Assembly: GCF_902833045.1 (NCBI RefSeq) | Contig: NZ_CADFDU010000003.1 | Coordinates: 372,001-436,000, forward strand | Reading direction: 5' to 3' | Origin: Burkholderia sp. BCC0322 | GTDB taxonomy: Bacteria > Pseudomonadota > Gammaproteobacteria > Burkholderiales > Burkholderiaceae | DNA length: 64,000 bases | Shown: positions 18,770 to 43,864 of the stretch, in pieces | Layout: each line of letters begins with the position of its first letter | How positions within the stretch are numbered: the stretch's first letter is position 1 | Program-made: the position numbers and the translations under genes | Notes under the pieces: model-generated | Told to the model about the DNA's origin: nothing | Seen by the model: the letters and a program-made list of their open reading frames with translations, nothing else | Database searches by the model: none

Positions 18770-18780
18770 AAGAGGCGGTG

Positions 18781-22942: not shown

Positions 22943-22979
22943 TCCTTCGGCCGATCGATTCGGCACCTCGGCCGAAGGA
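22943..22979. promoter_or_regulatory. 12-bp inverted repeat in the gap before the tandem hydrolase gene
   Basis: TCCTTCGGCCGA (22943-22954) and TCGGCCGAAGGA (22968-22979) are perfectly complementary with a 13-nt loop. It sits 166 bp after the glycosyltransferase stop and 37 bp before the hydrolase ATG, inside otherwise continuous plus-strand genes. There is no U-tract. It may be an attenuator, a processing stem separating operon halves, or an operator. Confidence 0.45.
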
Positions 22980-23015
22980 TGCGATATCTCATTCTTCACC
23001 GATACCTAATTAAAA

Positions 23016-24806: not shown

Positions 24807-24976
24807 TACGAGGCCGGCGCCGGTTTTTGCCACGTGCGCCGGCCTCGTCGTTGCCCGGCGGAACGCGATATCGCCACGGGGCTATGTCAGATGTCGCACA
24901 GTTGGCGAGCGGGTGCGGTGATACGGTAACTCGCCTGTCCCTGGCCACGCTGCCTGCCCACTATACGACCCCAACG

Positions 24977-26143: not shown

Positions 26144-26293
26144 CCGGGCGCGGGAGCGTCGCGGCTGAAAGGAGCGACCCCGTGTCGCCTACGTGAATGG
26201 AATGGACTGCATGGAGTGGGAGATGAGGGTGGCGAGTGATGAAGGCGGCGTGCCGCGATATCGAATGTTTCAACCGATGTCCGGGAAGCCCAA

Positions 26294-27508: not shown

Positions 27509-27521
27509 GAAGGAGAACATC

Positions 27522-28805
27522 ATGCGGGCACTTCGACGCAACGCGGCGGCCGTGCTCGGCGCATTGGCCTTGTCGGCGGGGCACGGTTACGGCGACGAGC
27601 GGGTGGCGACGATCGCGCCCGCCAATACATCCGGCAGCCGCGATTTCAAGGGTTCATCGAATGGGCTGCTCGCCGGCACGTCTTCGATATCGAAAATCGA
27701 TGTGCATACGTTGCTGTATCCGGGCAGCACGACCCGAGTGCTGGCCCACTACCTGCCGTGGTGGGGCCCCGACCCGCGCGGCGTGGACGTCGGCTATCGA
27801 TCCGACGATCCTAGCCAGGCCTATCGTACCTTCGCCGACATGCAGTCGCGCGGTATCGACGGCGTGATCGTCGACTGGTACGGCCAGGGCCATTTCGTCG
27901 ACACGGCGTGGCAGGCATCCATGCCCGAGCTGGCGAAGTTTCCCGGGATGACGTTCTCGATCATGATCGACAGCGGCAGCTTCAAGTTCAATGCATGTCA
28001 CGGGTGCGACCTGACCGAAACGATCCTGAACAACCTCGCGTATATCAGCCGCGAATACTTCACGTCGACTCAGTATCTGCGTTACGACGGCCATCCGATC
28101 GTGTCCGAGTTCGGGATGGATGCGGTCGGGAAGGCGGACTGGGCGCGTATTCATGCCGCATACCCGGACGTCTACTGGATCCATACGCTTGCGCCGGGTT
28201 TCGATCTGCCGTACAGCAAGGGGGCGTATGTCTGGGAGCAGCCGTCGTCGTGGTCCGCGCCGCAACCGGCCGGCACGCGGCACGACCTGCTGTATCGCGA
28301 TCGCTTCTACAACATCGCCCGGAACCAGCCGCCGGGGATGATCGCGGTCGGTGGCGTGTGGAGCGGGTTCGACGACAGGAAGGCGTCGTGGGGCGCCGCC
28401 GCGCCGCGCTTTCTTGCGCCTGCGTGCGGCCGCACCTGGCTCGACACGTTCAAGAGCATCAACGAGCGCTACAACGCGCGCCAGCAGCTCCCGTTCGTTC
28501 AACTGATTACGTGGAACGACTACGAGGAGGGGAGCGCGCTCGAAACCGGCATCGCCAGTTGCACGGAGATCGACGCGCAGCCGTTGGGCGCGAGCGTGAC
28601 CGTCCGGATCACCCATCCGGACACCGTCGATCATCTGGAGCTCTACGAGCAGCTTGGTCCGTCGTCGTTCAGGCTGGTCGGACGCTATCCGGCCGATGCG
28701 ACGAGCATGTCGCTGCCTGATACGCGGGCGGGCACGTATTTCGTCAAGGCGGTCGGCAAGCCGTTCATCCAGAACGTCGTTTCGGCGGCCATCGTCGTGC
28801 GCTGA
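27522..28805 (+). CDS. Secreted GH99/GH71-like glycoside hydrolase
   Basis: A 427-residue protein; start ATG at 27522 with AAGGAGAA upstream and a signal peptide (MRALRRNAAAVLGALALSAG). Barrel strands typical of the GH99/GH71 group are seen: VLAHYLPWWGPD, GIDGVIVDWYGQG, YLRYDGHPIVSEFGMD and LITWNDYEEGSALETG. A short beta-sandwich end (VTVRITHPDTVDHLELYEQLG) follows. GH99 enzymes cleave internal alpha-mannosidic bonds and GH71 alpha-1,3-glucans. In a cluster that makes GDP-mannose, an endo-acting hydrolase that trims or releases the exopolysaccharide is the likely role. The exact family is not settled. Confidence 0.82.
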   Translation: MRALRRNAAAVLGALALSAGHGYGDERVATIAPANTSGSRDFKGSSNGLLAGTSSISKIDVHTLLYPGSTTRVLAHYLPWWGPDPRGVDVGYRSDDPSQAYRTFADMQSRGIDGVIVDWYGQGHFVDTAWQASMPELAKFPGMTFSIMIDSGSFKFNACHGCDLTETILNNLAYISREYFTSTQYLRYDGHPIVSEFGMDAVGKADWARIHAAYPDVYWIHTLAPGFDLPYSKGAYVWEQPSSWSAPQPAGTRHDLLYRDRFYNIARNQPPGMIAVGGVWSGFDDRKASWGAAAPRFLAPACGRTWLDTFKSINERYNARQQLPFVQLITWNDYEEGSALETGIASCTEIDAQPLGASVTVRITHPDTVDHLELYEQLGPSSFRLVGRYPADATSMSLPDTRAGTYFVKAVGKPFIQNVVSAAIVVR

Positions 28806-28829
28806 CGTGCGGGGATGCCGGCTGCGCCG

Positions 28830-30386
28830 CTATTCTGCCGTCGATCGAGCGAGCGGCGCCGCCATCGCCGCTTCGAGTTCCGCCGGCGGGCACGTCGGCC
28901 GGCCATATTGATCGTCGAAGCGGACGATGTCGTCCTCGCCGAGATAGTTGCCTGACTGCACCTCGATGATTTCGAGCGGGATCCGGCCGGGATTCTCGAG
29001 TCGATGCACTTCGCCGACCGCGATGTATGTGGACTCGTTCTCGCACAGCAGGAACGTCTCGTTGCCGCGCGTCACCTTCGCGGTGCCGCGCACGACGATC
29101 CAGTGCTCGGCGCGGTGATAGTGCATTTGCAACGACAGCTGCTTGCCGGGCTCGACCACGATCCGTTTCACCTGGAAGCGCTCGCCGAGATCGATCGAAT
29201 CGTAATGGCCCCACGGCCGCTGCACCTTGCGGTGCTCGCTTGCCTGCGGGCGCCGGTCGGTCTTCAGGCGCGCGACGACGTTCTTCACGCGCTGCACGTC
29301 GTGCTTGTTCGCGACCAGCACCGCATCGGGCGTCTCGATCACGACGACGTCCTTCATCCCGACGCAGGCGATGAGGCGCCCCTCCGAGCGCACGAAGCTG
29401 TCCTGCGTATCCTCGAACACGATCGGGCCGCGCGCGACGTTGCCGTGATCGTCCTTCGGCATGATTTCCCAGATCGCATCCCAGGTGCCGACGTCCGACC
29501 AGCCGGCCGCGAGCGGCACCACGATGCCTTCGATACCGAGTTCGCCGTGTTCCGCGAGGCGCTCCATCACCGCGTAGTCGATCGAGTCCGACGGGCACGC
29601 GTCGAAGGCCGCCGCATCGATCCGGAAGAACGGATCCTCGGCGATGCCCGCACGCCATGCGGTTTCGCAGGCCGCGTGGATGTCAGGCGCGAGCGCGGCG
29701 ATCGCCTTTAGCCAGACCGATGCGCGCGTGACGTAAATCCCGCTGTTCCACCAGTAGTCGCCCGATTGCAGATAGCGCTCGGCGAGCGCCGCGTCGGGCT
29801 TTTCGACGAAGCGACCGATCGCGTAGCCGCCCTGGCCGCCGTGGGGGCCCGTGCGCGGCTCGCCGACCTGGATGTAGCCGTAGCCCGTTTCGGCGCGGCG
29901 CGGCAGCACGCCGAGCGTGACGATTGCGCCTTCCTGTGCGTAACGGGCCGCACGCGCGATCGCATCCTGGAAGGCGCCGATGTCGGCGATCACATGATCG
30001 GCCGGCATCACCGCGAGCACGGGATCGTCCGCGAGCTGGCTTGCGTCGAGTGCCGCAAGCGTCAGCGCAGGCGCGGTATTGCGTGCGGCCGGCTCGAGCA
30101 GGATGCGGGCGGGTGCCGCGCGGCCGAGCACCTGTGCGGCACTCATGACACGATGCTGCTCGCCGCAGACCAGCAGCAGCGTGTCGCCCAGCGATGCATT
30201 CGCGATGCCGTTCAGGCGGCGCGCCGTCGCCGACAACGGCGATTCGTTCGAGGTCAGCTCGATCAACTGCTTGGGATACTGCTCGCGCGACAGCGGCCAC
30301 AGCCGCGTGCCGGAGCCGCCCGCGAGAATCACCGGCAGGATGCACGGCAGGTCGGGCTCGGGAACCGGACGAAGGGTGCGGGTCAT
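28830..30386 (-). CDS. manC: Mannose-1-phosphate guanylyltransferase / mannose-6-phosphate isomerase
   Basis: A 518-residue bifunctional enzyme starting at the ATG at 30386 (ATGA overlap with the upstream GNAT stop). The N-terminal domain has VILAGGSGTRLWPLSREQYPKQ-type pyrophosphorylase loop, MPADHVI and NSGIYVTRASVW. The C-terminal cupin isomerase domain has RPWGHYDSIDLGERFQVK, PGKQLSLQMHYHRAEHW and RLENPGRIPLEIIEVQ. It makes GDP-mannose, a donor and precursor for exopolysaccharide sugars. It is convergent with the secreted hydrolase gene (24-bp gap). Confidence 0.95.
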   Translation of the reverse strand: MTRTLRPVPEPDLPCILPVILAGGSGTRLWPLSREQYPKQLIELTSNESPLSATARRLNGIANASLGDTLLLVCGEQHRVMSAAQVLGRAAPARILLEPAARNTAPALTLAALDASQLADDPVLAVMPADHVIADIGAFQDAIARAARYAQEGAIVTLGVLPRRAETGYGYIQVGEPRTGPHGGQGGYAIGRFVEKPDAALAERYLQSGDYWWNSGIYVTRASVWLKAIAALAPDIHAACETAWRAGIAEDPFFRIDAAAFDACPSDSIDYAVMERLAEHGELGIEGIVVPLAAGWSDVGTWDAIWEIMPKDDHGNVARGPIVFEDTQDSFVRSEGRLIACVGMKDVVVIETPDAVLVANKHDVQRVKNVVARLKTDRRPQASEHRKVQRPWGHYDSIDLGERFQVKRIVVEPGKQLSLQMHYHRAEHWIVVRGTAKVTRGNETFLLCENESTYIAVGEVHRLENPGRIPLEIIEVQSGNYLGEDDIVRFDDQYGRPTCPPAELEAAMAAPLARSTAE

Positions 30387-30967
30387 CGATTGGCTCCGGT
30401 GTCGGCGGGCTGCCGGTTGAGTGTGCGGCTGTCGGCTCGCGTGTCGTCGTTGCGCGACCGGTGTGCCGACACGGCTCGCGACAGCAGGTTGCGCAACGCG
30501 CCTGCAGCGCGGTCGGACGATCGCACCAGGCCGACGAATGGCGCCCCCTGTTCGAGATACGGGCCATAGGCCTTGCGGAATCCGAAACGCTTGTAGAACG
30601 CCTGACGCGGCGCCGGGACGTGCGTGCGCACCGCGGCCGCGGGCCACGCGGCCTGCGCGGCGGTGAGGGCGCGCTCGATCAGCCGCTCGAGCGTATCGTC
30701 GTCGCGGCGGCTCTCGCTCGTGAGCACCTTGTCGATCACGACGTCCGGGTCGATGTCGTCGCCGGGCAGGATGCGTGCGTAGGCCGCGACTTCCATGGTG
30801 TCGCCGTCGCGCGTGGTCGCATAGACATGCAGCGCGCCCGCGTCCTTGCCGTCGATGTCGAGATGCGTGTGCGCGTCCTCGACCACCAGCACGGCGTTGC
30901 GGGCGCGCAGGATTGCGTAGAGGTCGACGGCGCCCAGATGTTCGAATTCACAACAATGCCATTCCAT
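30383..30967 (-). CDS. ElaA-like GNAT-family acetyltransferase
   Basis: A 194-residue protein; ATG at 30967 with GAGGA upstream. The N-terminal LYAILRARNAVLVVEDAHTHLDIDGKD block follows the ElaA subfamily pattern (usually VFVVEQ...DxDGxD). The GNAT core has VAAYARILPG, then RRDDDTLERLIERAL and a C-terminal QAFYKRFGFRKAYGPYLEQG acetyl-CoA-fold motif; residues after about 165 are a charged tail absent from ElaA. It overlaps manC by 4 bp, so the two form one operon. Possible roles are acylation of an amino sugar or of a small molecule; the substrate is unknown. Confidence 0.82.
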   Translation of the reverse strand: MEWHCCEFEHLGAVDLYAILRARNAVLVVEDAHTHLDIDGKDAGALHVYATTRDGDTMEVAAYARILPGDDIDPDVVIDKVLTSESRRDDDTLERLIERALTAAQAAWPAAAVRTHVPAPRQAFYKRFGFRKAYGPYLEQGAPFVGLVRSSDRAAGALRNLLSRAVSAHRSRNDDTRADSRTLNRQPADTGANR

Positions 30968-31888
30968 GATGCTGTCCTCGCGTGATGCCTTCGGCATGCC
31001 TTGCCGCATGGACGCGATCGTCCCGTGCAGCGCGGCGATCCTCATCATCCGGGTACGCGCTGCGCCGGTCTGTTCGAAAGCGTACTCACGATCCGGATTC
31101 GCCTCGCCGGTGCGGCTTGCGCAGCCAGGAAGCGCCGCGCGAGCGCCGCAAGGTGCGGTAGCACACACCGGGATGGCCGGTGCTTTTTCATAATTGCCCC
31201 ATCCTGGCTGCCCGCCTCGATGCGAGGCCAGTCAACATCGAATGTCAATAAAGAACCGGGGGCCGGACTTGAAGATTGCGAGCGTTCACGACGGGCCGGT
31301 CGTGCATGGCGGCGCCGGGCACACACTCACGCACGTGGTCGGCTGTACCGCGCAGGCCGACCGTGTGCCGCCTCGTCGGATCCCTGCAGGGCAGTGCGTG
31401 CCCGTGCGGCGTACACGTCCTCCATCCGCATGCCGTTGTTGCGACTTGGGATCAGGCGACGCGGCCTGGCCGATGGCGACAACGGGCGGCCCGCATCCGA
31501 GCCGACGAAACGCCGGATCCGGTCGCGACGATCCTGAGCGGCACGTGGCGGATCGCCATGCTGCATTGCGGGGGGCCTGCGTCGGCGCGACCGATTTCAC
31601 ACGTGGTCGCAACGACTCGCCGGAGAGCGATCGGCGTGCGCCGCACGCGTTTCGCCGCGCGTCGACGCCGCGAACCGGGATACGTGACGTGGTGCGGTTG
31701 ATTACGGTATGTAACGGACGAGCGGAGCGCGAGCGGGCCGGGCGTCGCCGCGATACGATTCGGCCGTCCGGCGGCGCGCGCGATTATGTGGCAAGTGGAA
31801 TGCGGTATCGGCCATTCCCGGGGATTTCGGTAAAAATCACTAGCAATCCACCGTGCCCATCTTGGGGAAAAGTAGTATTTGCCACTGA

Positions 31889-32395: not shown

Positions 32396-33787
32396 ATGAA
32401 TATGCCAATAACGCGCGATAAGAGCGCCGGCGCGGGGAGTGGTAACGGGCAGCGTCCGCTGATTTACTGGACGCAGTCGCCGTCCGTCATGCTGCGAAAG
32501 GAACTGGCGCGACGCGACTGGAAAGTGTCGATCGTTGCGCAGGCGAGCGAACTGCGCGACACGTCCGGTGAAATCACCTGCGGCATCCTCGACCTGAGCG
32601 GCGGTCATGCCGACGCGATCGGAAGCATTGCGTCGACCTGCGCGTCGATGCGCGACGTCGTCTGGGTCGCACTCGTCGACGTCGGCCAGACCGCTTCGCC
32701 GAACGTGCGCGCGCTGTTGCGCGACTATTGCTTCGACTACGTCACGTTGCCCGCCTCGCATCAGCGGATCGCCGATACGGTCGGCCATGCGTACGGCATG
32801 GAGTGCCTGTTCGCGCGCGATCGCGAACGGCTCGAATCGGAGGAGAAAGGCATCGTCGGCACCTGCAGCGCGATGCTGCGGCTGTTCGATACGGTGCGGC
32901 GCTTCGCGCGCACGGACGCACCGGTGTTCGTGTTCGGCGAAACGGGGACCGGCAAGGAGTTGACGGCGGTCGCGATCCATCGCCATTCGGAGCGCCGCAA
33001 CGGCCCGTTCGTCGCGGTCAACTGCGGCGCCATTCCGCCGCATCTGCTGCAATCCGAGCTGTTCGGCTATGAACGCGGCGCGTTTACCGGCGCGAACGCA
33101 CGCAAGATCGGCTATGTGGAAGCGGCGAGCGGCGGCACGCTACTGCTCGACGAGATCGGCGACCTGCCGCACGAGAGTCAGGCGAGCCTGCTGCGTTTCC
33201 TGCAGGAGCGCGCAATTCATCGCCTGGGCGGCAGCGATCCGGTGCCGGTCGATGTCCGGATCGTGTCGGCGACGCACGTGGACCTGCGGGAGGCGATGGA
33301 GGAAGGGCGCTTCCGGCCGGACCTGTTCCACCGTCTGTGCGTGATGCGCATCGACCAGCCGCCGCTGCGCGCGCGCGGCAAGGACATCGAGCTGCTCGCG
33401 CATCACATGCTCGAACGTTTCCGTGGCGACGCGCGCCATCGCGTGCGCGGCTTCTCGACGGATGCGATCACGGCACTTTACAAGCACGACTGGCCCGGCA
33501 ATGTCCGCGAGTTGATCAACCGCGTACGCCGCGCGGTCGTGATGACGGAAGGGCGCCTGATTACCGCGCAGGATCTCGAACTCGAATACTGCCTCGATGC
33601 CGCGTCGCCGTCGGTGGCCGACATCCGCAAGTCGATCGAGCGCGAGGCGATCGAAACCGCCTTGCTGCGCACGCGCGGGCGCGTCGCGGCGTCGGCCCGC
33701 GAGCTCGGCGTGTCGCGCGCCACGCTGTATCGCTGGATGGAGGCATACGGGATCGAGCGGCCGCGCGGCACGGGCTCGTCCGACTGA
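32396..33787 (+). CDS. berB: VpsR-like sigma-54-dependent activator (probable BerB)
   Basis: A 463-residue enhancer-binding protein. Residues 1-150 form a receiver-like domain resembling VpsR (LIYWTQSPSVMLRKELARRD) without an obvious typical phosphoryl-Asp pocket. The AAA+ domain has Walker A GETGTGKE (about 181-188), the sigma-54 contact loop GAFTGA (about 227-232) and Walker B GGTLLLDEIGDLP (about 246-258). A Fis-type HTH is at the C-terminus (ASARELGVSRATLYRWMEAYG). In B. cenocepacia, BerB is a c-di-GMP-binding RpoN activator of the Bep exopolysaccharide and, as I recall, follows bepL; position and architecture match. c-di-GMP binding here is inferred from that homology. Confidence 0.87.
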   Translation: MNMPITRDKSAGAGSGNGQRPLIYWTQSPSVMLRKELARRDWKVSIVAQASELRDTSGEITCGILDLSGGHADAIGSIASTCASMRDVVWVALVDVGQTASPNVRALLRDYCFDYVTLPASHQRIADTVGHAYGMECLFARDRERLESEEKGIVGTCSAMLRLFDTVRRFARTDAPVFVFGETGTGKELTAVAIHRHSERRNGPFVAVNCGAIPPHLLQSELFGYERGAFTGANARKIGYVEAASGGTLLLDEIGDLPHESQASLLRFLQERAIHRLGGSDPVPVDVRIVSATHVDLREAMEEGRFRPDLFHRLCVMRIDQPPLRARGKDIELLAHHMLERFRGDARHRVRGFSTDAITALYKHDWPGNVRELINRVRRAVVMTEGRLITAQDLELEYCLDAASPSVADIRKSIEREAIETALLRTRGRVAASARELGVSRATLYRWMEAYGIERPRGTGSSD

Positions 33788-33833: not shown

Positions 33834-36311
33834 TCAACCGGCCTGCGTGGCGCGCACCGTGCGCGCGGCGTTGACAGCCCGGACCTCCACGGCCGGCGGC
33901 ACATCGGCCGCGGCGCCATGCTTCCCGGTCAGGTCAAGCGGAACGAGGGTGACGCGCGCCGGCGTATCGGGCGCGAGATGGAACCAGTCGTCGCGCGGCA
34001 GGTAGCCCGGCGCATCGATCTGCACGTGACGCGCAACGTGCCGTGTGTCGATGTCGACATGCCACGTGTCACCGGTGCGCGACACGCACGCTTCCAGCCC
34101 GAGTTCACGGCGCGCCAGGGCGGCCGGATGCGAGCGGGACGGGAAATGGAACGCCTGCGACAGCAGCGTGCCGTCGTCCGCGCGGAGTGTCGCGACGACG
34201 GTGTCGTGTTCGCAGGGCCCGAACCGGTACGCGTAAGTCCAGTCGAAGAACCGGCCGAGCAGCTCGGCCGAGCCGATCCGCACGGCGTCGTGCGCCGCGA
34301 CTCGCACCGGGCAGCCGGCCCGCGCGACCGGCGTGCGGCCGTCGCGCAGCGCGACCAGCTCGAGCGCGGCCGACAGCGGCGCGGGGCGCTCGTTGACGAC
34401 ATGCACGTCGAGCCCGTTCAAGCCTTCGTCGACGAGCAGCAGCTGCACCGGCTGCAGGACCTGGCGCAACGCATACCACGCCGATTTCGGCCGGTGCGCG
34501 GCGTCGATCACTCCCCAGCCGGCGCCGGGCATCACGTCCTGGAACTGCCAGACGAGCGCGCCGGCGCAGCGCGAGCCGGTGCGCCGCCATTCGGAAAACG
34601 TTTCGCGCATCAGGTCCGCAATGACCGCGCGCGACAGCTCGAAGTAGCGCGCCGGATCCTCGCGCCGCAGCCGGTCGGGCACGACGTCGTAGAGCGTCTG
34701 CAGATAGTGGTCGCGTACGTCCTCGAAATCCCACGACGTGCCGGGATCGCGCGGTACGGCTGCCTTCCAGCGCGGCTCGTGCACGCCGGGCCAGCCGAGC
34801 TCGGCGAGCGTCGCGTCGCACGGCACGTTCGAGAACGCGAGGCATTCGCTCGCGAAGCGCACGTCCGCGCGGCGCGCGTCGTCGAGCGGGCGCAGGTAGG
34901 CACCGACGCCGTAGTAGTGCGACACGCGTTCGCGCGGTGCGAACGGCAGCACGCCGCCATCGGGCGAATCGGGCACGTACGGGACGTCGGGCCGGCACGC
35001 GGCCGCGTGGCCGGCCAGCCGGTCGGCGGTCAGCTCGACGAAGCGCTGCTTCGGGCCGAGCCCGGACATCGCGGCCTGTTGCGCGATCTCGCTGCCGCCG
35101 CACAGTACGGCGAGAGACGGCGATGCGCCGTGACGCGAGAGGAACTGCCGGGCTTCGCGATCGACGTTGTCCGCGAACGCGGGATCGTCGAACGCATAGT
35201 CGAAGTTCGCGAACATGAAATCCTGCCAGACCAGCAGCCCGAGCCGGTCGCACCACGCGTGAAAGGCATCGGCCTCGTAGGTCATCGTGCCGCCGACGCG
35301 GATCATGTTGAAGCCGGCGTCGCGCGCGAGCCCGAGCAGGCGGGCGTAGGTCGCGTCGTCCGCGTGCAGCGCGAGCGGCGCGGCGCTACTCCAGCATGCG
35401 CCGCGCGCGAACACGGGCACGCCGTTGATGCGCAGCCCGAAGCCCTTGCCGTCGGCGCCGGCGTCGACTTCGATCGTGCGGAAACCCGTTGCACCGAGCG
35501 GCCGCACCTCGTCGCAGAGATGCAGCGCAACGTCGTACAGCACCGGCTCGCCGTGCGTATGCGGCCACCAGCGGCATACGTTGGGTACCGCGACGCTGGC
35601 GCGCAGACGGTCGGCACCGGCACGTTCGAGCGTGGCGTGGTGCTGGCCGCACGACAGCCGCGCCGCGATCGCGTCGGGCAGCGGCGCGGCGAACGTCAGT
35701 TCCGCATCGAGCCAGCCCGTGTCGCCTTCGATGCGCGCGTGCAGGTCGCAATCGACGAGAACGGGCCCGTCGGCCGGATCGAGCACATCCACGGGCCGCC
35801 ACGGGCCCGTCGGCACATACGGCGGAAACCAGCCCGGCATGTGGCCGAACAGCGATGTGCGGATCGTGCGCAGCGCCGCCGGCTCGGCGAGCCGCGTGCG
35901 CCAGCGTGCCCGGCGCGGCGCGCGCGTGTCGCGCAGGTGCGGGGCGAGCGCCCGGAAACACAGGGTCAGCCGGTGCGCACCGTCGAGCGACACGGATACG
36001 TCGTGTGCGACGAACATGCTGTCGGAGCGGAGGATCGGCGTGTCGTCGAGCCACGCTTGCGCGAGCGTCGCGAGGCCGTGAAAGCGCAGCACGCGCGGCC
36101 CGTGTCCGCGCAGTTCGATCCGGTACCAGTGGTCGCGCTCGTCGAGCGATTCGGCTTCGTCGAGCCGGCCCGCCAGCGCGAGCGACTGCGCGACCGTGCC
36201 GGGCACGGTCGCCGGGATCCAGCCGGCGGCCGGGAGGTCGCGCGGTTCCCGTGCGACCCCCGCGGCCGTCGCCAGCATCGACCACGCGGGCAGGGCGCGC
36301 GTGCGCGTCAC
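33834..36311 (-). CDS. GH2 beta-mannosidase-like protein
   Basis: An 825-residue protein started by GTG at 36311 (GTGA overlap with the DUF1839 stop). No signal peptide is seen, so it is cytoplasmic. Order: N-terminal sugar-binding jelly-roll (WIPATVPGTVAQSL; RDHWYRIEL), Ig-like domain (PPYVPTGPWRPV), TIM barrel (GFNMIRVGGTMTYEADAFHAWCDRLGLLVWQDFMFANFDY) and C-terminal beta domains. The nucleophile Glu appears in RFASECLAFSN. The acid/base block is AVLCGGSEIAQQ, where GH2 enzymes have an Asn-Glu pair; here Ser precedes Glu. It ends a five-gene coupled operon with carrier-protein genes, so it may act on an aminoacylated glycan or glycoside, or have a non-hydrolytic role. Confidence 0.85.
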   Translation of the reverse strand: MTRTRALPAWSMLATAAGVAREPRDLPAAGWIPATVPGTVAQSLALAGRLDEAESLDERDHWYRIELRGHGPRVLRFHGLATLAQAWLDDTPILRSDSMFVAHDVSVSLDGAHRLTLCFRALAPHLRDTRAPRRARWRTRLAEPAALRTIRTSLFGHMPGWFPPYVPTGPWRPVDVLDPADGPVLVDCDLHARIEGDTGWLDAELTFAAPLPDAIAARLSCGQHHATLERAGADRLRASVAVPNVCRWWPHTHGEPVLYDVALHLCDEVRPLGATGFRTIEVDAGADGKGFGLRINGVPVFARGACWSSAAPLALHADDATYARLLGLARDAGFNMIRVGGTMTYEADAFHAWCDRLGLLVWQDFMFANFDYAFDDPAFADNVDREARQFLSRHGASPSLAVLCGGSEIAQQAAMSGLGPKQRFVELTADRLAGHAAACRPDVPYVPDSPDGGVLPFAPRERVSHYYGVGAYLRPLDDARRADVRFASECLAFSNVPCDATLAELGWPGVHEPRWKAAVPRDPGTSWDFEDVRDHYLQTLYDVVPDRLRREDPARYFELSRAVIADLMRETFSEWRRTGSRCAGALVWQFQDVMPGAGWGVIDAAHRPKSAWYALRQVLQPVQLLLVDEGLNGLDVHVVNERPAPLSAALELVALRDGRTPVARAGCPVRVAAHDAVRIGSAELLGRFFDWTYAYRFGPCEHDTVVATLRADDGTLLSQAFHFPSRSHPAALARRELGLEACVSRTGDTWHVDIDTRHVARHVQIDAPGYLPRDDWFHLAPDTPARVTLVPLDLTGKHGAAADVPPAVEVRAVNAARTVRATQAG

Positions 36312-37366
36312 CGCATGACCGGCACGGCTGCCGCGGTGTCGCTGCGCACGGGCGTCATGTGCCGCAGCGGCAACGCGATTTGCCGCGCGCAGGCAACCAC
36401 ATCCGCGTACGCGGCCCCGATCGCTTCGAGCGTCGACTCGCCGCGCTCCTCCTTGCCGCGCGCGCAGGCGCGCGCGAGCCGGAATTCGAGCACCATCGCT
36501 TCGGACGCGATGCGGTCGCACGCGGCGCGGATCTCGGCGAACGGCCCGACGCAGCCGCTGGCCTGCAGCCAGCGCGCGTAATGGCCGAACAGCTCGAAAT
36601 TCGCGCCGAGCTGCCGTACCGAGTTGAACGAGTACGCATGGAAATGCTCGAGCGGCGAATCGGCGAGCGTCCGTGCATCGGTCTGCAACTGCCGCCGGAA
36701 TGCGGCGATCGGGTCGACGACCGGCAGGCGCCGCAGGTGGCGCTGCAGCGCGGCGAGCGACGTTTCGCACAGCGCACGCTCGTCGAGCGGCGCAAACCGC
36801 CGCTTTGCGCATTCGACGTACGGCGGCAGCGTCATCGGCGAGTTGCCGCCGACGAGCCCGTCGTAGTCGAAGTCCTCGGCCACGTAATAGCCGCTGTTGT
36901 GGAAGTAGCCGATCTGGCGCTTTGCGCGGTCGATCGCATCGATGCCGATCGTCGTCTTCGTGTGCTGCGTGCGGTAGCTGCTGCCGCGCGTATCGGGCAG
37001 GAACCACGCGTCGACCTCGACGATCATCAGGTGGCCGCGCGCAACCTGCGTCTCGATGTGCTGGTCCAGCGGCTCGTAGATCGAGTGCTCCTGCACGACG
37101 ATGCCGTACAGCCGCTCCAGTTCGTCGTGCGGAAACTTGAAGAACGTGAACTGGTCGCCTTCGAAATCGAGTGCGATCGTAAACGGCAGCGCCGCGTACG
37201 GATTGAAGCCCCACCACCGGAGCACCTCGAGCCACATGTCGACGTAGCAGTTGGTCTGTTTCCAGACCATCTCCTGGCCGTGCAGCGGATGCGGCCGGTA
37301 GTGGCGCGCGCGGTGGCGCACATCCTCGAACGACGCGTCGTCGCCGTCGCGGGACACGAATCTCAT
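36308..37366 (-). CDS. DUF1839 protein, putative Cys-dependent aminoacyl transferase
   Basis: A 352-residue protein; its ATG at 37366 overlaps the ligase stop (ATGA) and its TGA overlaps the GH2 GTG. The N-terminal half matches DUF1839: KQTNCYVDMWLEVLRWWGFN with Cys40, VEVDAWFLPDTRG with Asp119 and YRTQHTKTTIGID with His135. This Cys/His/Asp order resembles the BtrH-type papain-like fold, which in butirosin synthesis moves an aminoacyl group from a carrier protein to an aminoglycoside. The C-terminal half is helical and Ala/Arg-rich. Beside a carrier protein and an amino acid:carrier ligase, a role moving the aminoacyl group from the carrier to an acceptor is likely. The acceptor is unknown. 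Confidence 0.78.
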   Translation of the reverse strand: MRFVSRDGDDASFEDVRHRARHYRPHPLHGQEMVWKQTNCYVDMWLEVLRWWGFNPYAALPFTIALDFEGDQFTFFKFPHDELERLYGIVVQEHSIYEPLDQHIETQVARGHLMIVEVDAWFLPDTRGSSYRTQHTKTTIGIDAIDRAKRQIGYFHNSGYYVAEDFDYDGLVGGNSPMTLPPYVECAKRRFAPLDERALCETSLAALQRHLRRLPVVDPIAAFRRQLQTDARTLADSPLEHFHAYSFNSVRQLGANFELFGHYARWLQASGCVGPFAEIRAACDRIASEAMVLEFRLARACARGKEERGESTLEAIGAAYADVVACARQIALPLRHMTPVRSDTAAAVPVMR

Positions 37367-38337
37367 GGCGTGCCCCACAGCACGTCGCGCACTGCGCGCG
37401 GCCATGCATCGATGTCGAGGCCGTGATGGCGGAACAGCGCGAGCGTGAGCCGTTCGAGGCCGAAGCCGACGCAGCCCGTGTGCGCGACGTCGCCCGTGGC
37501 GGTGCGGATGTCCCACAGCAGCCCGAAATGGTCCATGTGGTAGTTGAAGCTCAGGCAGGCGGTCTGGCGACCATCGTGCTCGATCGGGATCAGCAGCTCG
37601 AACTTCAGGTTCTGCTCGCGCTGGCTGTTCGCGACGATCTTGCCGCCGCGCCCGAAGAACGGATCGTTCGCGAGGTCGATCGCGTTGGGCAGGCGCAGCA
37701 TCTCGATCATCCGCGTGCCGCGTTCGATCCAGGTCTCGCGGAACGCGACGATCTGCTCGGGCGTGCCGATCCGCACGTACTCGCGCATCCGGAACAGCTG
37801 CATGCGGGTCGGATCGAGCGACGGCTCGTGGCGGAAGCAGTACGAGAAGACGTCGACGATCCGGCCGTCGGCCGGCAGCGCGCCTGCGCGTGCGACGACC
37901 GGGTAGACCGGGTAGCACGCGGCCGGCGTCATCACGACGTAGGTCGGCTTCTGGCTTTCCGTCCAGTCGTCGCCGCGATCGAGGCACTGCAATACGCGCT
38001 GGTGCTGGTGTTCGTCGCCACAGAACGCATGCACGCTGCCCGCGAGCTGCGGGAAGCTCTTCATGTATTCGCTGCGCTCGAACTCGGTGCGGCTCATCGC
38101 CGGCGGGAAGCGCAGCACTTCGGCCTGCTGGTCGGTGCCGATGCGCGTGACGAACGCGTCGAGCGCTTCCACGACGCGCTCGAACCGTTCGCTGCGGCCG
38201 AACAGGCCCTGGATGCCGGTGGAGACCAGCAGGCCCGCGTCGATCAGTTCGTCGCGCAGCGGGTTGACGCCCGCGCGGTCGATTGGTGCATCGGCGGGAG
38301 CGGAGGCGGCGGAGGGCACGGCAAGGCGATCGTTCAC
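37363..38337 (-). CDS. Amino acid:[carrier protein] ligase (class II aminoacyl-tRNA synthetase-like)
   Basis: A 324-residue protein started by GTG at 38337 (GTGA overlap with the flavoprotein stop). It is a shortened seryl-tRNA-synthetase-like catalytic core without the tRNA-binding coiled coil. Class II motif 2 is seen at residues 168-183 (FRHE...R...F), motif 3 at 291-297 (GFGLERL), and zinc-type Cys residues at 141 (TPAACYPVYP) and 289. Members of this family adenylate a small amino acid (Gly or Ala in studied cases) and load it on the phosphopantetheine arm of a dedicated carrier protein rather than tRNA. The carrier gene is two genes upstream in the same operon. Which amino acid is used cannot be read. 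Confidence 0.9.
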   Translation of the reverse strand: MNDRLAVPSAASAPADAPIDRAGVNPLRDELIDAGLLVSTGIQGLFGRSERFERVVEALDAFVTRIGTDQQAEVLRFPPAMSRTEFERSEYMKSFPQLAGSVHAFCGDEHQHQRVLQCLDRGDDWTESQKPTYVVMTPAACYPVYPVVARAGALPADGRIVDVFSYCFRHEPSLDPTRMQLFRMREYVRIGTPEQIVAFRETWIERGTRMIEMLRLPNAIDLANDPFFGRGGKIVANSQREQNLKFELLIPIEHDGRQTACLSFNYHMDHFGLLWDIRTATGDVAHTGCVGFGLERLTLALFRHHGLDIDAWPRAVRDVLWGTP

Positions 38338-39530
38338 GTATGTTTCTCCAGCGTCGCAGGACGCAGCGCGAGCAGCAGGTTCGAGGTGTTGACGGCAATG
38401 CGGTCGTTGCTGATCATCAGCGCCGCCGCATACAGGTCACGAATGTGGCGGCCGATGCTGAACGGCGTGCCTTGCTTGTAGCCGGCCATCCCGCAGATCA
38501 TCATGGCCTGGTGCGCGACTTCCAGCGCGGTCGTCGACACGTAGGTCTTCAGCGTGTTGATTTCGGCGGCCCGGGCCATGCCGGCCGACCACGAGCGGGA
38601 CGCCGGATTCGCGTGAAGGCGCAGCACGTTGTCGACGCGGGCCTGCATCGCCTGCATCAGCGCGAGCGATTCGGCGATGCGCCGCGACGCGGGCGACGGC
38701 GCGCCATCGGTCTGGCGTGCCTGTGCGCGGAAGAACTGGTGCGCGCGGTGGAATGCGTCGCCGGCCACGCCGATCCATACCGCGGCCCACAGGATGTGCG
38801 ACACCGGCACCATCGTTTCCTCGGCGATCTTCGCGAACGGCACCGGCAGGCACTGGACGGCAGCGCCTTGCGCATCGAGCTCGAAACCGTTGCTGCAGGT
38901 GCCGCGCATCCCGAGCGTGTCCCATTCGCCGCGGCGCGTGAGCGTGTAGCCGTCGCGCAACAGCGTGACGAGCACCTGCTCGGAAGCCGGCGCGTCCGCA
39001 TCGCGTCGTGCGGTCGCGAGGATGCCGTCCGCATAGTCGCCATACGAGATCGTCGGCGCGGATTTGCGCAGCCGGAACTCGCCGCCGTTGATTTCGAGCG
39101 CACACTGGCTCGCACGCAGGTTGCCGCCGACGCCGTCTTCCGACGTGGCCGATGCAAGCAGCCACTGGTGACGCACGAGCTGCTGCAGGAACAGCTTGTG
39201 CCAGCCCTGGTCGAGCGCGTGGTCGACGATGCAGGCGACCTGGATCTGGTGCATCGCGAACACCATCGCCGACGACGCACAGGCCTGGCCGAGAATCGAG
39301 CAGGCCGACGCGATATCTTCCAGCGACGCGCCAGCGCCGCCGAGATGGGGCGGCACCATCGCGCCGAGCAGGCGGCGCGCGCGCATGGCCTCGATCGCCT
39401 CGACGGGGCAGCGCGCGTCGCGGTCGACCGCGTCCGCGTGCTGCGCGGCGATCTGGGCGACGGCATGCGCGGCCTCGTCGAGCCGACGCGAATCGCTGTC
39501 GGCCGCGAGTTCGGGAAGCAGCGCGCTCAT
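38334..39530 (-). CDS. Acyl-CoA dehydrogenase-like flavoprotein
   Basis: A 398-residue protein overlapping the carrier gene (ATGA at 39527-39530) and the ligase gene (GTGA). The fold is clear: N-terminal helices (MVPPHLGGAGASLEDIASAC), middle beta domain (LASATSEDGVGGN; LRKSAPTISYGDYADGIL) and C-terminal helical domain (MMICGMAGYKQGTPFSIGRHIRDLYAAALM). The usual catalytic Glu in the last helix region (YEGTxx in short-chain dehydrogenases) is absent; ISNDRIAVNTSN stands there. It may therefore be a carrier-bound aminoacyl desaturase/oxidase of atypical type, or a monooxygenase-like member of the superfamily. Acting on the aminoacyl-carrier thioester is inferred from the operon. Confidence 0.85.
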   Translation of the reverse strand: MSALLPELAADSDSRRLDEAAHAVAQIAAQHADAVDRDARCPVEAIEAMRARRLLGAMVPPHLGGAGASLEDIASACSILGQACASSAMVFAMHQIQVACIVDHALDQGWHKLFLQQLVRHQWLLASATSEDGVGGNLRASQCALEINGGEFRLRKSAPTISYGDYADGILATARRDADAPASEQVLVTLLRDGYTLTRRGEWDTLGMRGTCSNGFELDAQGAAVQCLPVPFAKIAEETMVPVSHILWAAVWIGVAGDAFHRAHQFFRAQARQTDGAPSPASRRIAESLALMQAMQARVDNVLRLHANPASRSWSAGMARAAEINTLKTYVSTTALEVAHQAMMICGMAGYKQGTPFSIGRHIRDLYAAALMISNDRIAVNTSNLLLALRPATLEKHT

Positions 39531-39778
39531 GCCGAATGCTCGGTGCGTTGCAGCGTGGCGATCGTGTCCGCGAGCGCGTCGATGCTGCGGAACAGGTTGC
39601 GGTTCAGCATCTCGTCGGGAATCTCGATGTTGAATTGCTTCTCGATCGCGAGCATCAGCTGGATCGTGTCGAGCGACGAAAGGCCCGCTTCGTAGAGATC
39701 GTCCCCGTCGCCGATCGAGTCGATCGCGGCTTCGAGATGGGCGACGTGCTTCAGGATGGTTCTGATTTCGTTTTTCAC
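39527..39778 (-). CDS. Acyl/aminoacyl carrier protein
   Basis: An 83-residue acidic helical protein, first gene of the five-gene operon. The phosphopantetheine site is AGLSSLDTIQL, with Ser35 as the modified residue (SSL replaces the usual DSL). The following helix LMLAIEKQFNIEIPDEMLN is typical of carrier proteins. It should be converted to holo form by a phosphopantetheinyl transferase encoded elsewhere and charged by the synthetase-like ligase downstream. No fatty-acid or NRPS genes are nearby. Confidence 0.92.
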   Translation of the reverse strand: MKNEIRTILKHVAHLEAAIDSIGDGDDLYEAGLSSLDTIQLMLAIEKQFNIEIPDEMLNRNLFRSIDALADTIATLQRTEHSA

Positions 39779-39958: not shown

Positions 39959-40741
39959 TCAGGCGCGCGCCGCGGCCGGCACGCCCGAATCGGCCGACAG
40001 GATGCGCTTCATCTCGTCGCGCACGATCGCGCGGCAGCCGCACGACATTTTTTCGAGGCCGGCGAGGTCGGCGAGCTCGATCGAGCTCCGGTATTGCCGG
40101 ATCAGGCCCAGCTTCTGGATTTCGCCGGCGGCATCGGTGACCGTTTCGCGCCGCACGCCGAGCATCTGCGCCAGCATGCTGTGCGTCACCTGGATCTCGA
40201 TGCTGCGCGTCCGGTCGTACGCGAGCAGGAACCATCTGCATAACTGATGTTTGAGCACGTGGTGACGGCTGCAGAACGTGATCTGGGAGACCTGCGCCAT
40301 CAGCAGCCGCACGCACAGGAACACGAGATGGCGGATCACCGGCGATGCGTCGAACGCCGCGGCGAACACGCGCCGGTCGAGCCGATAGACGAAGCCGTCG
40401 CGGCAGGCCACGGCACGGCAGGGCATCCGGCCGCTGCCGCCGATCACGTCGTCGCACACCACGCTTTCGCTGCCGATCTCCGCGACTTCCAGCGTCATGC
40501 CGCCGGACGACACGTATTGCAACGAAATCGCGGTCGTGACGGGCAGGTAGACCGCGGCGAGCATTTCGCCGGGCTCGCAGAGCACTTGCCCGGATTTCAG
40601 GTGGACGAGTTGAAGGTGGGGGGCCAGGGTCGCGAGCTCTTCGCGGTCGACGGCCGCGAGAAAGCGGTTCGCATCGAAGCTGTGGGAAAGCTCGATCATG
40701 CCGTTCGCATACGCGACGGTGTCAGGGGCCTGATGAGTCAC
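39959..40741 (-). CDS. Crp/Fnr-family transcription regulator
   Basis: A 260-residue protein. I choose the GTG at 40741 because GAGGAT lies upstream; ATGs at 40768 and 40699 are possible. The N-terminal cyclic-nucleotide-binding-like beta-barrel (FLAAVDREELATLAPHLQLVHLKSG...) lacks the classic cAMP phosphate cassette. The C-terminal winged HTH is LAQMLGVRRETVTDAAGEIQKLGLI. It is a paralogue of the BerA-like protein 0.9 kb away (shared HLQLV, CSRHHVLKHQLCRWFLLAYDR pattern). It faces the carrier-protein operon on the same strand, 180 bp upstream of the carrier gene, and may control it. The ligand is unknown. Confidence 0.88.
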   Translation of the reverse strand: MTHQAPDTVAYANGMIELSHSFDANRFLAAVDREELATLAPHLQLVHLKSGQVLCEPGEMLAAVYLPVTTAISLQYVSSGGMTLEVAEIGSESVVCDDVIGGSGRMPCRAVACRDGFVYRLDRRVFAAAFDASPVIRHLVFLCVRLLMAQVSQITFCSRHHVLKHQLCRWFLLAYDRTRSIEIQVTHSMLAQMLGVRRETVTDAAGEIQKLGLIRQYRSSIELADLAGLEKMSCGCRAIVRDEMKRILSADSGVPAAARA

Positions 40742-41663
40742 GGCGCATCCTCGTAGGGTGGCGGTCACGCGTCGTCGCGGCGATACCCCGAAAATGGGGA
40801 ATTCGCACGATCGTGCAGACTTGTGTTCGTCAAAAATGGAGTGACGATACTGGCGAAAAGGCTAGCACGGCATTGAAACCGAACAATTGCATATTGCGTC
40901 ATTTCACAAAGTTTGACGATTTTTGCCGAGTGAAAACGTCATCCGGATTTAATGATTCATTTCGGCGAAATTAATCATCCTGAATCCGAATGTGACTTCG
41001 GACATTCATTCCATGTCGGCAGGGAGTCAATCGGTCAGGCGGGTGCATCGCACGGGGAAAGTGCCCGGAGGGCATTGAACATTATTTGACAAATAAATGG
41101 ATGCCGATAAAAAACATATAAAAATCAAAGGCTTGTTGTTGAATTGTGCGGTGGGTTACAGAGTCGAAAATTAGTGTGCCGATTCAAATTTGAGACAGTT
41201 TCAAACAGCCGTGTGAGGCGCGGCGCGGCGGCGGAGTGCTACCCGGCACATCATGGAAACAATTGAAAATCGACAGTAAGTATATGAACGACAAGCCTCG
41301 CGGCGCCGGTGCGGCTGCCTCGGTTGGATGCACGCGAAATGATCAGTCAAATGCCGCGCAGTGTCCATCACTCGGAAGAGTGTCCGGAAATGAGACGCTT
41401 TTTTTGTTTTTCAACGAGTTATTCGGGTGATCTAAATCCGGCGTGATTCACATATTAAGGATAGGCATGTATTGGCACGTAAATCGCTTATTCGGGATGG
41501 CGTGTCGAAACGGAACGGCCGACTCGATCCGGCGGCGAACAAGCCGAGGGTCAGTCGGAATCAGGGTTGTGGCCGCAACCCCTGCAACGTCCGGGCGCGC
41601 ATCGCGATAACGAGTTCCATGCACGCGGCAGCAGGCGGCACGGACGATAAAAGGGATACAGAC
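40742..41663. promoter_or_regulatory. AT-rich divergent control region between two Crp-family genes
   Basis: This 0.9-kb region is far more AT-rich than its surroundings. It holds a 27-bp dyad (40952-40978), a candidate promoter on the plus strand (TTGACA 41086-41091, 16-bp spacer, TAAAAA 41108-41113), the palindrome TCAAATTTGA (41184-41193) followed by a further TCAAA (41201), and a T-run (TTTTTTT at 41399-41405) preceded by the small stem CACTC-GGAA-GAGTG (41369-41382). The parts could form a long berA leader with an attenuator or a small RNA. A 48-codon frame from 41284 is not convincing. Confidence 0.5.
40952..40978. promoter_or_regulatory. 27-bp dyad operator candidate
   Basis: From 40952 to 40978 the sequence is symmetric about G40965: ATGATT ... 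ATTTCG-G-CGAAAT ... AATCAT, with 12 of 13 base pairs matching. It lies about 210 bp upstream of the Crp-family gene at 40741 and about 690 bp upstream of berA. Length and symmetry fit a dimeric regulator site. Confidence 0.6.
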
Positions 41664-42446
41664 ATGCTTCATCTTCACTCGAGCTACTCGGCGAATGCCA
41701 TCCTCGATGCCCTCCCCGAGGACAGCATCCGCACCATCGCACCGCATCTCGAACTGGTCAGGGTCAAGGCCGGGATGCTCGACCGGGTCGGCGAGCCGAT
41801 GCGTCACGTGCATTTCCCGACGACGTCGATGATGTCGGTGCAGCACCTGATGGAGGACGGTGCGATGGTCGAGGTGGCGCAGGTCGGCCGCGAAGGGGTG
41901 GTCGGGCTGGCGACGATGGTCGGTGGCGCCGCGGCGTCGCACCGGGTCGAGGTCCGCATCGGCGGGATGGCCTATCGTGTGCCGAGCTGCGTGATGCGCG
42001 CCGAATTCGAGCGCTCGCCGCAGACCTACCGGCTGTTGCTCAACTACTGCCAGGCGGCGATGGCGCAGATCTCGCGCAGCGCGCTGTGCAACCGGCATCA
42101 CTCGGTCAGCGAGCAGCTCAGCCGCTGGCTGCTGCTGGCGCATGACCGCATTGACGGCGACGAACTGGCTGTCACGCAACAGACGATCGCGAACATGCTC
42201 GGCGTGCGGCGCGAAGGCGTGACGGAGGCGGCGGGCAACCTGCAGGAAGCCGGGTTGATCCGGCAGCGCCGCGGCCGCATCACGGTGCTCGACCGCGACG
42301 GCCTCGAACATCACGCGTGCGAATGCTACGACCTGATTCGCGCGGACTATCGCAGGCTGCTCGGCACGCGCGGGACGGCGCGGCCGACACCGGTTCGGCC
42401 CCGCATGCCGGAGGCGCATCGCGGGTTCCCGGCACATGGTGCGTGA
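41664..42446 (+). CDS. berA: Crp/Fnr-family regulator, probable c-di-GMP effector BerA
   Basis: A 260-residue protein; ATG at 41664 with AAGGG upstream. The cyclic-nucleotide-binding-like domain (AILDALPEDSIRTIAPHLEL; FPTTSMMSVQHLMEDGAMVEV; VGREGVVGLATMVGG) is followed by a winged HTH (TQQTIANMLGVRREGVTEAAGNLQEAGLI). The last 25 residues are Pro/Arg-rich. BerA of B. cenocepacia is a Crp-family c-di-GMP receptor that raises exopolysaccharide production. Size, partner gene (a WcaJ-type transferase next door) and distance from berB match the locus as I recall it. c-di-GMP binding is inferred, not visible. Confidence 0.82.
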   Translation: MLHLHSSYSANAILDALPEDSIRTIAPHLELVRVKAGMLDRVGEPMRHVHFPTTSMMSVQHLMEDGAMVEVAQVGREGVVGLATMVGGAAASHRVEVRIGGMAYRVPSCVMRAEFERSPQTYRLLLNYCQAAMAQISRSALCNRHHSVSEQLSRWLLLAHDRIDGDELAVTQQTIANMLGVRREGVTEAAGNLQEAGLIRQRRGRITVLDRDGLEHHACECYDLIRADYRRLLGTRGTARPTPVRPRMPEAHRGFPAHGA

Positions 42447-42448
42447 CG

Positions 42449-43864
42449 ATGCAGTCGAAGCCCGGTGGAACGAATGCGATGCGGCGCGCCGCGATCGCGG
42501 CGACCGACGTCGTGCTCGTGCTGGCAGGCGCGCTCGCCGCGCAGGCGGCGTCGGGCCTCGCGTGGCGCGAGCTGTCCGACGCGCAGCGCGGCGCGATCGC
42601 GCTGCTGTGCGTGCTGACCGTGGCATTGCTGCCGCGCTACCTGCGCACCGTACGCGGCAGCATGGCGCCGCACGGCGGCACGCATGCGCTGACGCAAACG
42701 CTCGTGGGGCTCGTCTGCGCGAGCGTGCTGACGGTGGCCGCCGCGCTGTGGATCATGAACCGCGGCGGCACGATCACGACACGCTGGATCGTGCGCACGG
42801 TGCTGGCCGGCGACGCGGCGTTGCTGCTCGGCCGTACCGCGCTGCTGGCGCTCGCGCTGACGCGTGACGATCCGCGCGCGCGGCAGCGCCGCGTCGCAGT
42901 GGTCGGCGCAACGGCCTACGGGCGTGTCGCGGTCGAGCGGATGCAGCTCGCGCCGCAGGGCCCGTTCGTGGCGGCGTGCGTTTTCGATGACGACGCACAG
43001 GCTGCGTCCGGCGGGATTGGCGGCGTGCCGGTGATCGACGACTGGAATGCATTGCGCGACCTGATTCGCGGCGGCGAGATCGACGAGGTATGGCTCACGC
43101 TGCCGATGTCGCACGAGTGGCGGATCCAGCGCATCGTCCGCGAGTTGCGCGACGAGTTCGTGGAATTGCGGCTGCTGCCCGACGTGCGGCAGATGGCGGT
43201 GGTCGATCGCTCGGCGACCGACGTGCTCGGCATGCCGGCCATCAACCTCGCGACCACGCCACGCTCGGCGCCGGAGCTGTGGGCGAAGTTCGCGTTCGAC
43301 CGGTTGTTCGCCTTCGGCGTGCTGATTCCGTTGCTGCCGCTGCTGTCGCTGCTGGCGATCGCGGTCAAGCTGTCGTCGCCGGGGCCCGTGCTGTTCAGGC
43401 AGCGCCGCAAGGGCGTCGATGGCCGGGAGTTCGACATTCTGAAGTTCCGGACGATGCGCGTGCATCGTGCACAGCCGGGAGTCGTGCGGCAGGCGTCGCG
43501 CAACGATACGCGCATCACGCGCGTCGGCGCGTTCCTGCGGCGCACATCCCTCGACGAGCTGCCGCAGTTCTTCAACGTGCTGTTCGGGCAGATGTCGGTC
43601 GTCGGCCCGCGTCCCCATGCGATCGAACATGACGACTTCTACCGGCAACTGATCGACTGTTACATGTATCGCTACCGCGTGCGGCCCGGCATCACCGGAT
43701 GGGCACAGGTGAACGGCTATCGCGGTGAGACCCGCAAGGTCGAGGCGATGGAAGCGCGTGTGAAGTTCGATCTGTTCTACATGCAGAACTGGAGCTTCTG
43801 GTTCGACATGAAGATCATCCTGTTGACGGTCGTGCGGGGATTCGTCGGGCGCAACGCGTTCTGA
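42449..43864 (+). CDS. WcaJ-type undecaprenyl-phosphate sugar-1-phosphate transferase
   Basis: A 471-residue PHPT-family initiating transferase starting 2 bp after berA. The N-terminal four-helix membrane region and a Rossmann-like CoA-binding-type domain (RRVAVVGATAYGRVAVERM) precede a transmembrane hairpin (LFAFGVLIPLLPLLSLLAIAVKL) and the catalytic bacterial sugar transferase domain: PVLFRQRRKGVDGREFDILKFRTM, DELPQFFNVLFGQMSVVGPRPH and RPGITGWAQVNGYRGE. It starts repeat-unit synthesis by moving hexose-1-phosphate to undecaprenyl phosphate. The polysaccharide cluster at 10-31 kb has no such enzyme, so this is the likely initiator for it. Confidence 0.93.
   Translation: MQSKPGGTNAMRRAAIAATDVVLVLAGALAAQAASGLAWRELSDAQRGAIALLCVLTVALLPRYLRTVRGSMAPHGGTHALTQTLVGLVCASVLTVAAALWIMNRGGTITTRWIVRTVLAGDAALLLGRTALLALALTRDDPRARQRRVAVVGATAYGRVAVERMQLAPQGPFVAACVFDDDAQAASGGIGGVPVIDDWNALRDLIRGGEIDEVWLTLPMSHEWRIQRIVRELRDEFVELRLLPDVRQMAVVDRSATDVLGMPAINLATTPRSAPELWAKFAFDRLFAFGVLIPLLPLLSLLAIAVKLSSPGPVLFRQRRKGVDGREFDILKFRTMRVHRAQPGVVRQASRNDTRITRVGAFLRRTSLDELPQFFNVLFGQMSVVGPRPHAIEHDDFYRQLIDCYMYRYRVRPGITGWAQVNGYRGETRKVEAMEARVKFDLFYMQNWSFWFDMKIILLTVVRGFVGRNAF

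Follow-up and report, generated by a model that had tools for sequence, protein, structure and literature searches.

The 64,000-nucleotide stretch of Burkholderia sp. BCC0322 analysed here (contig NZ_CADFDU010000003.1, positions 372,001 to 436,000; the window) carries on its minus strand a five-gene operon (33834-39778) whose probable role is the tRNA-independent attachment of a small, possibly oxidised amino acid to a sugar of the cell surface. Its genes encode an 83-residue carrier protein (39527-39778; NF005480 and PF00550), with the phosphopantetheine site in the motif GLSSLD (residues 32-37), a 398-residue flavoprotein of the acyl-CoA dehydrogenase fold (38334-39530; Acyl-CoA_dh_N and _1), which is a redox enzyme probably acting on the carrier-bound amino acid, a 324-residue class II synthetase-like amino acid:[carrier protein] ligase (37363-38337; NF005479, and PDB entry 4h2w at 1.6e-93), a 352-residue DUF1839 protein with a predicted CcbD-like architecture, that is, a papain-like fold plus a helical domain (36308-37366; PF08893; Cys40, Asp119, His135 and His156), and an 825-residue beta-mannosidase-like protein of glycoside hydrolase family 2 (GH2) (33834-36311; GH2 galactose-binding domain plus profile match). 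When the reading frames are read directly, all four junctions are 4-bp overlaps (ATGA, GTGA, ATGA, GTGA), exactly as a preliminary description of this DNA had it. The fixed stoichiometry that it deduced from this tight coupling does not follow, because such overlaps are common in the window (9 of 35 same-strand neighbour pairs by gene caller, three of the nine in the operon, where the caller picked a different DUF1839 start) and the spacing within the set, overlap lengths included, varies between genomes.

Gene content and order are conserved. When 398 genomes of the phylum were searched with PF08893 and NF005479 (in counts that take no account of kinship), DUF1839 was present in 16 and the ligase passed its cut-off in 28 (44 at E<=0.001). 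The 28 include every DUF1839 genome, and each of these 16 had the order carrier-flavoprotein-ligase-DUF1839-GH2. A scan of named genomes gave at least 576 DUF1839 relatives among 594 stretches, and in the best 80, which were those analysed (Rhizobium, Agrobacterium, Shinella, Mesorhizobium and relatives, plus two metagenome-assembled genomes labelled only Proteobacteria), the five genes stood in order on one strand in 78, the other two (L138, L154) being cut by contig ends. The two data sets overlap, at least four of the 80 loci (L086, L094, L146, L161) belonging also to the 398-genome set. Since the order holds in 16/16 DUF1839 genomes and 78/80 best loci, the grouping is not due to chance: rare co-occurrence, which the preliminary description had named as a refuting outcome, is the opposite of what the surveys returned. 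EF-P/EpmA/EpmB-like neighbours in three Rhizobiaceae-type loci were set aside as local synteny. The remaining 12 ligase genomes (L066-L077) have flavoprotein and ligase without DUF1839, with no GH2 gene in the stretch read and with a mostly divergently oriented carrier gene in 10 of the 12 (none was detected in L076 and L077); some of these loci adjoin an AMP-binding enzyme, a short-chain dehydrogenase/reductase and an esterase, or pyridoxal phosphate enzymes, which looks like another use of an aminoacyl-carrier. A divergent ligase branch (101-175 bits, under cut-off) occurs in 16 of the 398 genomes (eight stretches, L078-L085).

The charging pair belongs, as previously described, to families known for loading small amino acids. 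The ligase scores 560.1 bits with NF005479 (amino acid--[acyl-carrier-protein] ligase, an equivalog model with a curated cut-off of 357) and the carrier 146.6 bits with NF005480 (cut-off 72). Ligase residues Cys141, Glu186 and Cys289 align with the zinc-ligand positions of the Bradyrhizobium ligase Bll0957, which we take to be C131/E176/C279. A 2022 review still calls the role of these ligases unknown, at least in the text available (PMC9437257).

The DUF1839 protein (423.1 bits with PF08893, gathering cut-off 22.5) has no other Pfam match at E<=1; as BtrH_N (PF14399) is not matched, sequence does not support membership of the BtrH family. As its profile found nothing significant among PDB sequences (one match, E 0.18), a fold search was used, and the predicted structure, papain-like with a helical C-terminal part as in CcbD/CtaG-type amide synthetases, matched carrier-dependent amide-bond enzymes along its whole length, CcbD being the best hit, with CtaG and the AziU2/U3 complex also found. 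CcbD links an amino acid held by a carrier protein with an amino sugar. The residues that had been singled out (Cys40, Asp119, His135) are all present: among 16 aligned copies His135 and Asp119 are invariant and Cys40 is kept in 14. By sequence pattern, Cys40 and His135 correspond to the catalytic Cys and His of the CcbD/CtaG type; invariant Asp119 comes before His135 and invariant His156 after it (the third residue is Glu in CcbD and, judging by PDB variants, Asp144 in CtaG). From the modelled fold, DUF1839 is probably a carrier-dependent transferase, which supports the transferase role first proposed. In earlier work (PMC10318531, in the text available), the family counts as papain-like, its site reads C(T/S)H and a part in glycan processing at the cell wall is suggested. 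In one genus (g4), two copies of DUF1839 are frequent (L020:6401-7381, L028:8935-9921, L226-L245). Arg, Gln or Ser replaces the catalytic Cys of one copy in 17 of the 20 two-copy loci read (L226-L245), where the other copy retains it; a Cys-bearing copy is retained in all 20, and those that lost the Cys are the operon copies. These are likely, from their residues, to be enzyme/pseudoenzyme pairs.

What the flavoprotein does to the amino acid is harder to pin down. Despite the fold and domains of acyl-CoA dehydrogenases, no Glu was seen at the usual base positions (the pairwise alignments end short of the position), and Asp376, in the catalytic-base region, is Asp in 18 of 20 aligned proteins, with Glu in one and His in another. 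A profile search gave no match at E<=1e-30; the nearest sequences include the nitrososynthases DnmZ and KijD3, together with TdsC and MsuC, intermixed with dehydrogenases. The structural model (pLDDT 80) gives a tie between dehydrogenases, ColB1 (dehydrogenation of a tethered cysteine) and the DszC/MsuC monooxygenases, with DszC as top Foldseek match. The enzyme may thus be a dehydrogenase or a monooxygenase, and we hold the chance of a flavin-dependent N- or C-monooxygenase to be only slightly below even. The oxidation or desaturation previously put forward is therefore one option, which neither sequence nor fold comparison separates from monooxygenation.

Built from 19 orthologues, the GH2 profile aligns almost end to end with GH2 beta-mannosidases of solved structure (5n6u, 1.2e-82). 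Glu408 and Glu489 are invariant in the 19 and align with the mannosidase acid/base and nucleophile positions, roles that we presume them to have in this order. The residue preceding the acid/base is Ser (Ser407) in 18 of 19 and Asn in one, whereas mannosidases have Asn. Because a Ser-Asp pair takes the place of Asn-Glu in exo-beta-glucosaminidases, Ser407 may, by analogy, point to a 2-amino sugar substrate. No signal peptide was seen by eye, and the protein is apparently cytoplasmic.

The five genes stand up as a unit; analysis of the neighbourhood added a sixth partner that had been missed. It is a tandem alpha/beta-hydrolase (23016-24806, plus strand) encoded in the neighbouring Bep-type exopolysaccharide (EPS) cluster, which resembles TIGR03100 and TIGR03101 under their curated cut-offs (109.3 vs 168.45 and 91.0 vs 202.75 bits, respectively). 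The GxCSG elbow of its second domain is invariant in seven aligned sequences, making Cys394 a probable nucleophile. The full-length protein was found in 17 of the 398 genomes, namely all 16 with DUF1839 and one of the 382 without (G323; Fisher 1.2e-27, a value that ignores kinship); three first-look candidates were scored per genome, so that misses are possible, and eight more genomes had partial matches. Within the genus of the nearest genome, which we take as that of the window, the ligase occurs in 57 of 65 genomes and the tandem protein in all 57 (54 full length, two as adjacent halves, one as a half; seven of the full-length rows have one stop codon in the matched stretch), the eight ligase-negative genomes giving weak partial matches or none. 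The link is looser in genus g4 (ligase in 46 of 60), where the protein accompanies 38 of the 46 ligase-positive genomes and two of the 14 others. A single gene matches both the tandem hydrolase and a Wzx-type flippase in 18 of the 80 best loci (the domains were displayed for L021). In two genomes lacking the ligase, G323 and G501, the same carrier family is accompanied by an enzyme that scores over cut-off with the amino acid adenylation model TIGR01733, followed by the tandem protein; adenylation-domain enzyme, NF005480 carrier and tandem hydrolase are consecutive at L218:7514-11309 and L271:6885-10608. Judging by these gene sets, an enzyme of the non-ribosomal peptide synthetase (NRPS) type apparently replaces the aminoacyl-tRNA synthetase (aaRS)-like ligase for the same job.

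The setting of the operon is one of glycan biosynthesis. The Bep-type EPS region (11984-31048) encodes glycosyltransferases, a Wzc-like protein, GMP/PMI, an acyltransferase 3 protein and a GHMP kinase. Between it and the operon lies a sigma-54 enhancer-binding regulator (32396-33787, plus), which by position and family would be BerB; beyond the operon, on its upstream side, are a CRP/FNR-type regulator (39959-40741, minus; weak NCBIfam match), a second member of the same homology cluster that by position would be BerA (41502-42446, plus) and the EPS priming enzyme undecaprenyl-phosphate glucose phosphotransferase (42449-43864, plus; TIGR03023 over cut-off). Six genes separate the BerB and BerA candidates, as the numbering of Bcam1342 and Bcam1349 would require (PMC5552954, in the text available). 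The first CRP-type regulator, on the operon strand, may be co-transcribed with it. The only sigma-54-like site in the window with at most one mismatch is at 41473-41488, and no convincing site was found for the operon itself (with up to two mismatches, 17 sites in the window vs 23 by chance). At 11984-15105, the GHMP kinase, an HddC-like nucleotidyltransferase (under cut-off) and genes that by eye resemble those of isomerases and phosphatases have the look of a GDP-heptose pathway, whereas the published Bep repeat has no heptose. In other genomes, 108 neighbours of 12 five-gene loci include eight group 1 glycosyltransferases, five GNVR and three Wzz proteins, none of these families reaching two among 108 control proteins of the same genomes. 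A test with EPS seeds, covering 14 of the 16 five-gene and eight of the 12 three-gene loci, was positive for 12/14 and 3/8, respectively, and for 1/15 controls; it is partly circular, several seeds coming from those very loci. In Agrobacterium tumefaciens, Atu2574 lies by gene number near a cluster that includes Atu2577-2592, which makes an uncharacterised glycan reportedly needed for phenazine tolerance (PMC9790009, in the text available).

The core idea is already in print as a prediction. In a note in proof, Iyer and colleagues (2010; PMC2922099, in the text available) predicted a set made of a SerRS-like ligase, an acyl carrier protein (ACP), a redox enzyme, a conserved open reading frame (Agrobacterium Atu2574) and a glycosidase, whose product would be a cell-surface sugar with an amino acid ligated on its amino group. 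The preliminary description, which knew of no product for the set, is to be corrected accordingly. From its gene context, we infer that Atu2574 is a DUF1839 protein; what is added here is the predicted DUF1839 fold, the retention of its Cys and the sixth partner. Searches for Bcam1343-1347 by locus tag, or for work joining acyl-carrier-protein ligase, amino acid, exopolysaccharide and gene cluster, found nothing, and the available text has no mention of 'acyl carrier' in PMC5552954, nor of 'acyl carrier' or 'DUF1839' in PMC9684580.

The interpretation that we favour, and consider somewhat more probable than its negation, is that in this cytoplasmic module a small amino acid is bound to the carrier, probably oxidised, and then attached without tRNA to one of the sugars of a cell-surface glycan. 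The steps would be as follows: (i) the ligase would activate the amino acid at the expense of ATP and transfer it to the carrier phosphopantetheine, an activity known for the family from the literature, (ii) the flavoprotein would oxidise the aminoacyl-carrier, (iii) DUF1839, as suggested by its predicted fold, conserved residues and context, would take the acyl group onto Cys40 and pass it to a sugar amino (or hydroxyl) group with His135 as base, as CcbD does for lincosamides, (iv) GH2 would process a beta-glycoside of the acceptor sugar in the cytosol and (v) the tandem Cys-type hydrolase would be a second acyl-handling enzyme, working with the acyl-carrier at the lipid-linked glycan/flippase step. 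The final acceptor would be an EPS or lipopolysaccharide (LPS) repeat. The full chain, that is, a tRNA- and NRPS-free route with aaRS-like charging, an amide formed by a CcbD-type fold on an amino sugar of a lipid-linked EPS/LPS repeat, an oxidised amino acid, a cytoplasmic GH2 enzyme and a tandem Cys-hydrolase at the flippase, is a more tentative proposal, to which we give a little less than an even chance.

Several observations weigh against this interpretation, besides the disregard of kinship in the genome counts. Of 60 g4 genomes, 13 carry DUF1839 but lack the ligase (G474 has partial DUF1839 matches only), and nine genes of this ligase-free type (G494 has a ligase elsewhere) show dN/dS values of 0.10-0.22 in 36 pairs, so the protein works without this charging system. 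At these nine loci, the gene caller gives GH2 as a fragment of about 260 residues or not at all in five, and as 704-759 residues in four. The tandem hydrolase is missing from eight of the 46 ligase-positive g4 genomes. In G410, the genes for ligase, carrier and tandem protein lie close to EPS genes and span about 15 kb, but the genome lacks DUF1839, and the 35 kb read contain neither flavoprotein nor GH2. Glycosyltransferases are modestly enriched (eight vs at most one, p 0.035), and the published Bep repeat consists of alpha-Gal/Glc/Gal/Man with no amino sugar and no beta linkage, at least in the text available. As side observations, DUF1839 is kept in L253, L255, L257-L259, L261 and L263-L265 mostly next to a gene for Wzc and one for a probable regulator of the CRP type, with carrier, flavoprotein and ligase gone from the locus, and L266:10666-13207 (G410), where ligase, carrier and a 357-residue protein lie near EPS genes with no flavoprotein, DUF1839 or GH2 alongside, looks like a minimal variant.

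Some of these points also fit a reversal of roles, DUF1839 having a hydrolytic or editing activity, like a thioesterase or peptidase, and the tandem Cys-type hydrolase the real acyltransferase to the glycan. The survival of DUF1839 without the ligase, the G410 arrangement, the presence of the tandem protein beside carriers charged by two unrelated activating enzymes and the papain-like class assigned in the available text of PMC10318531 all argue for it; set against the CcbD-like fold match of DUF1839, we regard it as rather unlikely. The acceptor, for its part, had been suggested to be Bep or a precursor, and while the glycan setting stands, Bep itself is a possible rather than a likely acceptor, because its published repeat has neither amino sugar nor beta linkage. 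Bep was extracted in 0.3 M NaOH and its NMR recorded in NaOD (according to the text available), and an ester could therefore have been lost, an amide hardly. An aminoacyl ester on Bep that disappeared in this way would suit an operon that is flanked by the Bep regulators and adjoins the cluster, with the tandem hydrolase inside it, but CcbD-like chemistry yields amides, a beta-mannosidase-type GH2 would have no beta-linked target in the published repeat, and no base-free Bep structure was met (no dedicated search was made); we therefore judge it unlikely.

It is also conceivable, if quite improbable in our view, that the module yields an aminoacyl-sugar or peptide-like metabolite, small and diffusible like lincosamides or closthioamide, and that the EPS neighbourhood is incidental. 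The structural neighbours CcbD and CtaG do belong to small-molecule pathways, and ligase and flavoprotein lie beside other metabolic genes in the 12 DUF1839-free genomes, but in several lineages the five-gene form has EPS genes next to it, hydrolase and flippase are matched by one gene in the loci mentioned above, and ligase/DUF1839 and tandem hydrolase co-occur in two data sets.

If decoration of a surface glycan is correct, a tRNA- and NRPS-free route would supply a function for the amino acid:carrier ligases. With the CcbD-like fold predicted for a frequent ligase partner, and with the sixth partner, the way in which Burkholderia relatives, rhizobia and agrobacteria might decorate surface sugars with an amino acid can be outlined as a testable pathway; in the latter two, biofilm, symbiosis and contact with plants could be affected. 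There is a warning here too: EPS structures determined after base extraction may miss labile substituents.

Compared with known systems, the module shares with the Bradyrhizobium amino acid:[carrier protein] ligases (Bll0957, PDB 3mey/4h2w) the ligase family and the residues at zinc-ligand positions, and differs from this type of system, seen in 12 of the 28 ligase genomes, by its DUF1839 and GH2 genes. The GH2 protein is like beta-mannosidases (PDB 5n6u, 2je8) in that its profile match is almost full length and the two catalytic Glu are present, and unlike them in having GGSE for GNNE and in being apparently cytoplasmic. EPS systems with exosortase A (XrtA) have a gene set that includes hydrolases 1 and 2, an AMP-forming ligase and an ACP. 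Likeness to them lies in the resemblance to TIGR03100 and TIGR03101, in an activating enzyme plus carrier within an EPS cluster and in a BerB candidate resembling TIGR02915, whereas here all matches are under family cut-offs, a single protein holds both hydrolase domains and activation falls to an aaRS-like enzyme. The prediction of 2010 (PMC2922099) argued from gene context, its available text giving neither a fold match nor catalytic residues, and neither the tandem hydrolase nor counts of co-occurrence. BtrH of butirosin biosynthesis offers carrier-dependent acyl transfer to an aminoglycoside by a papain-like fold (PMC10318531, in the text available), but DUF1839 has no BtrH_N match. The CcbD/LmbD lincosamide amide synthetases are like DUF1839 in full-length predicted fold, Cys and His, and carrier-protein partner, with an amino sugar as acceptor in CcbD; at 12-16% identity, DUF1839 differs from them in that its amino acid would be charged by an aaRS-like ligase and in a surface-glycan setting.

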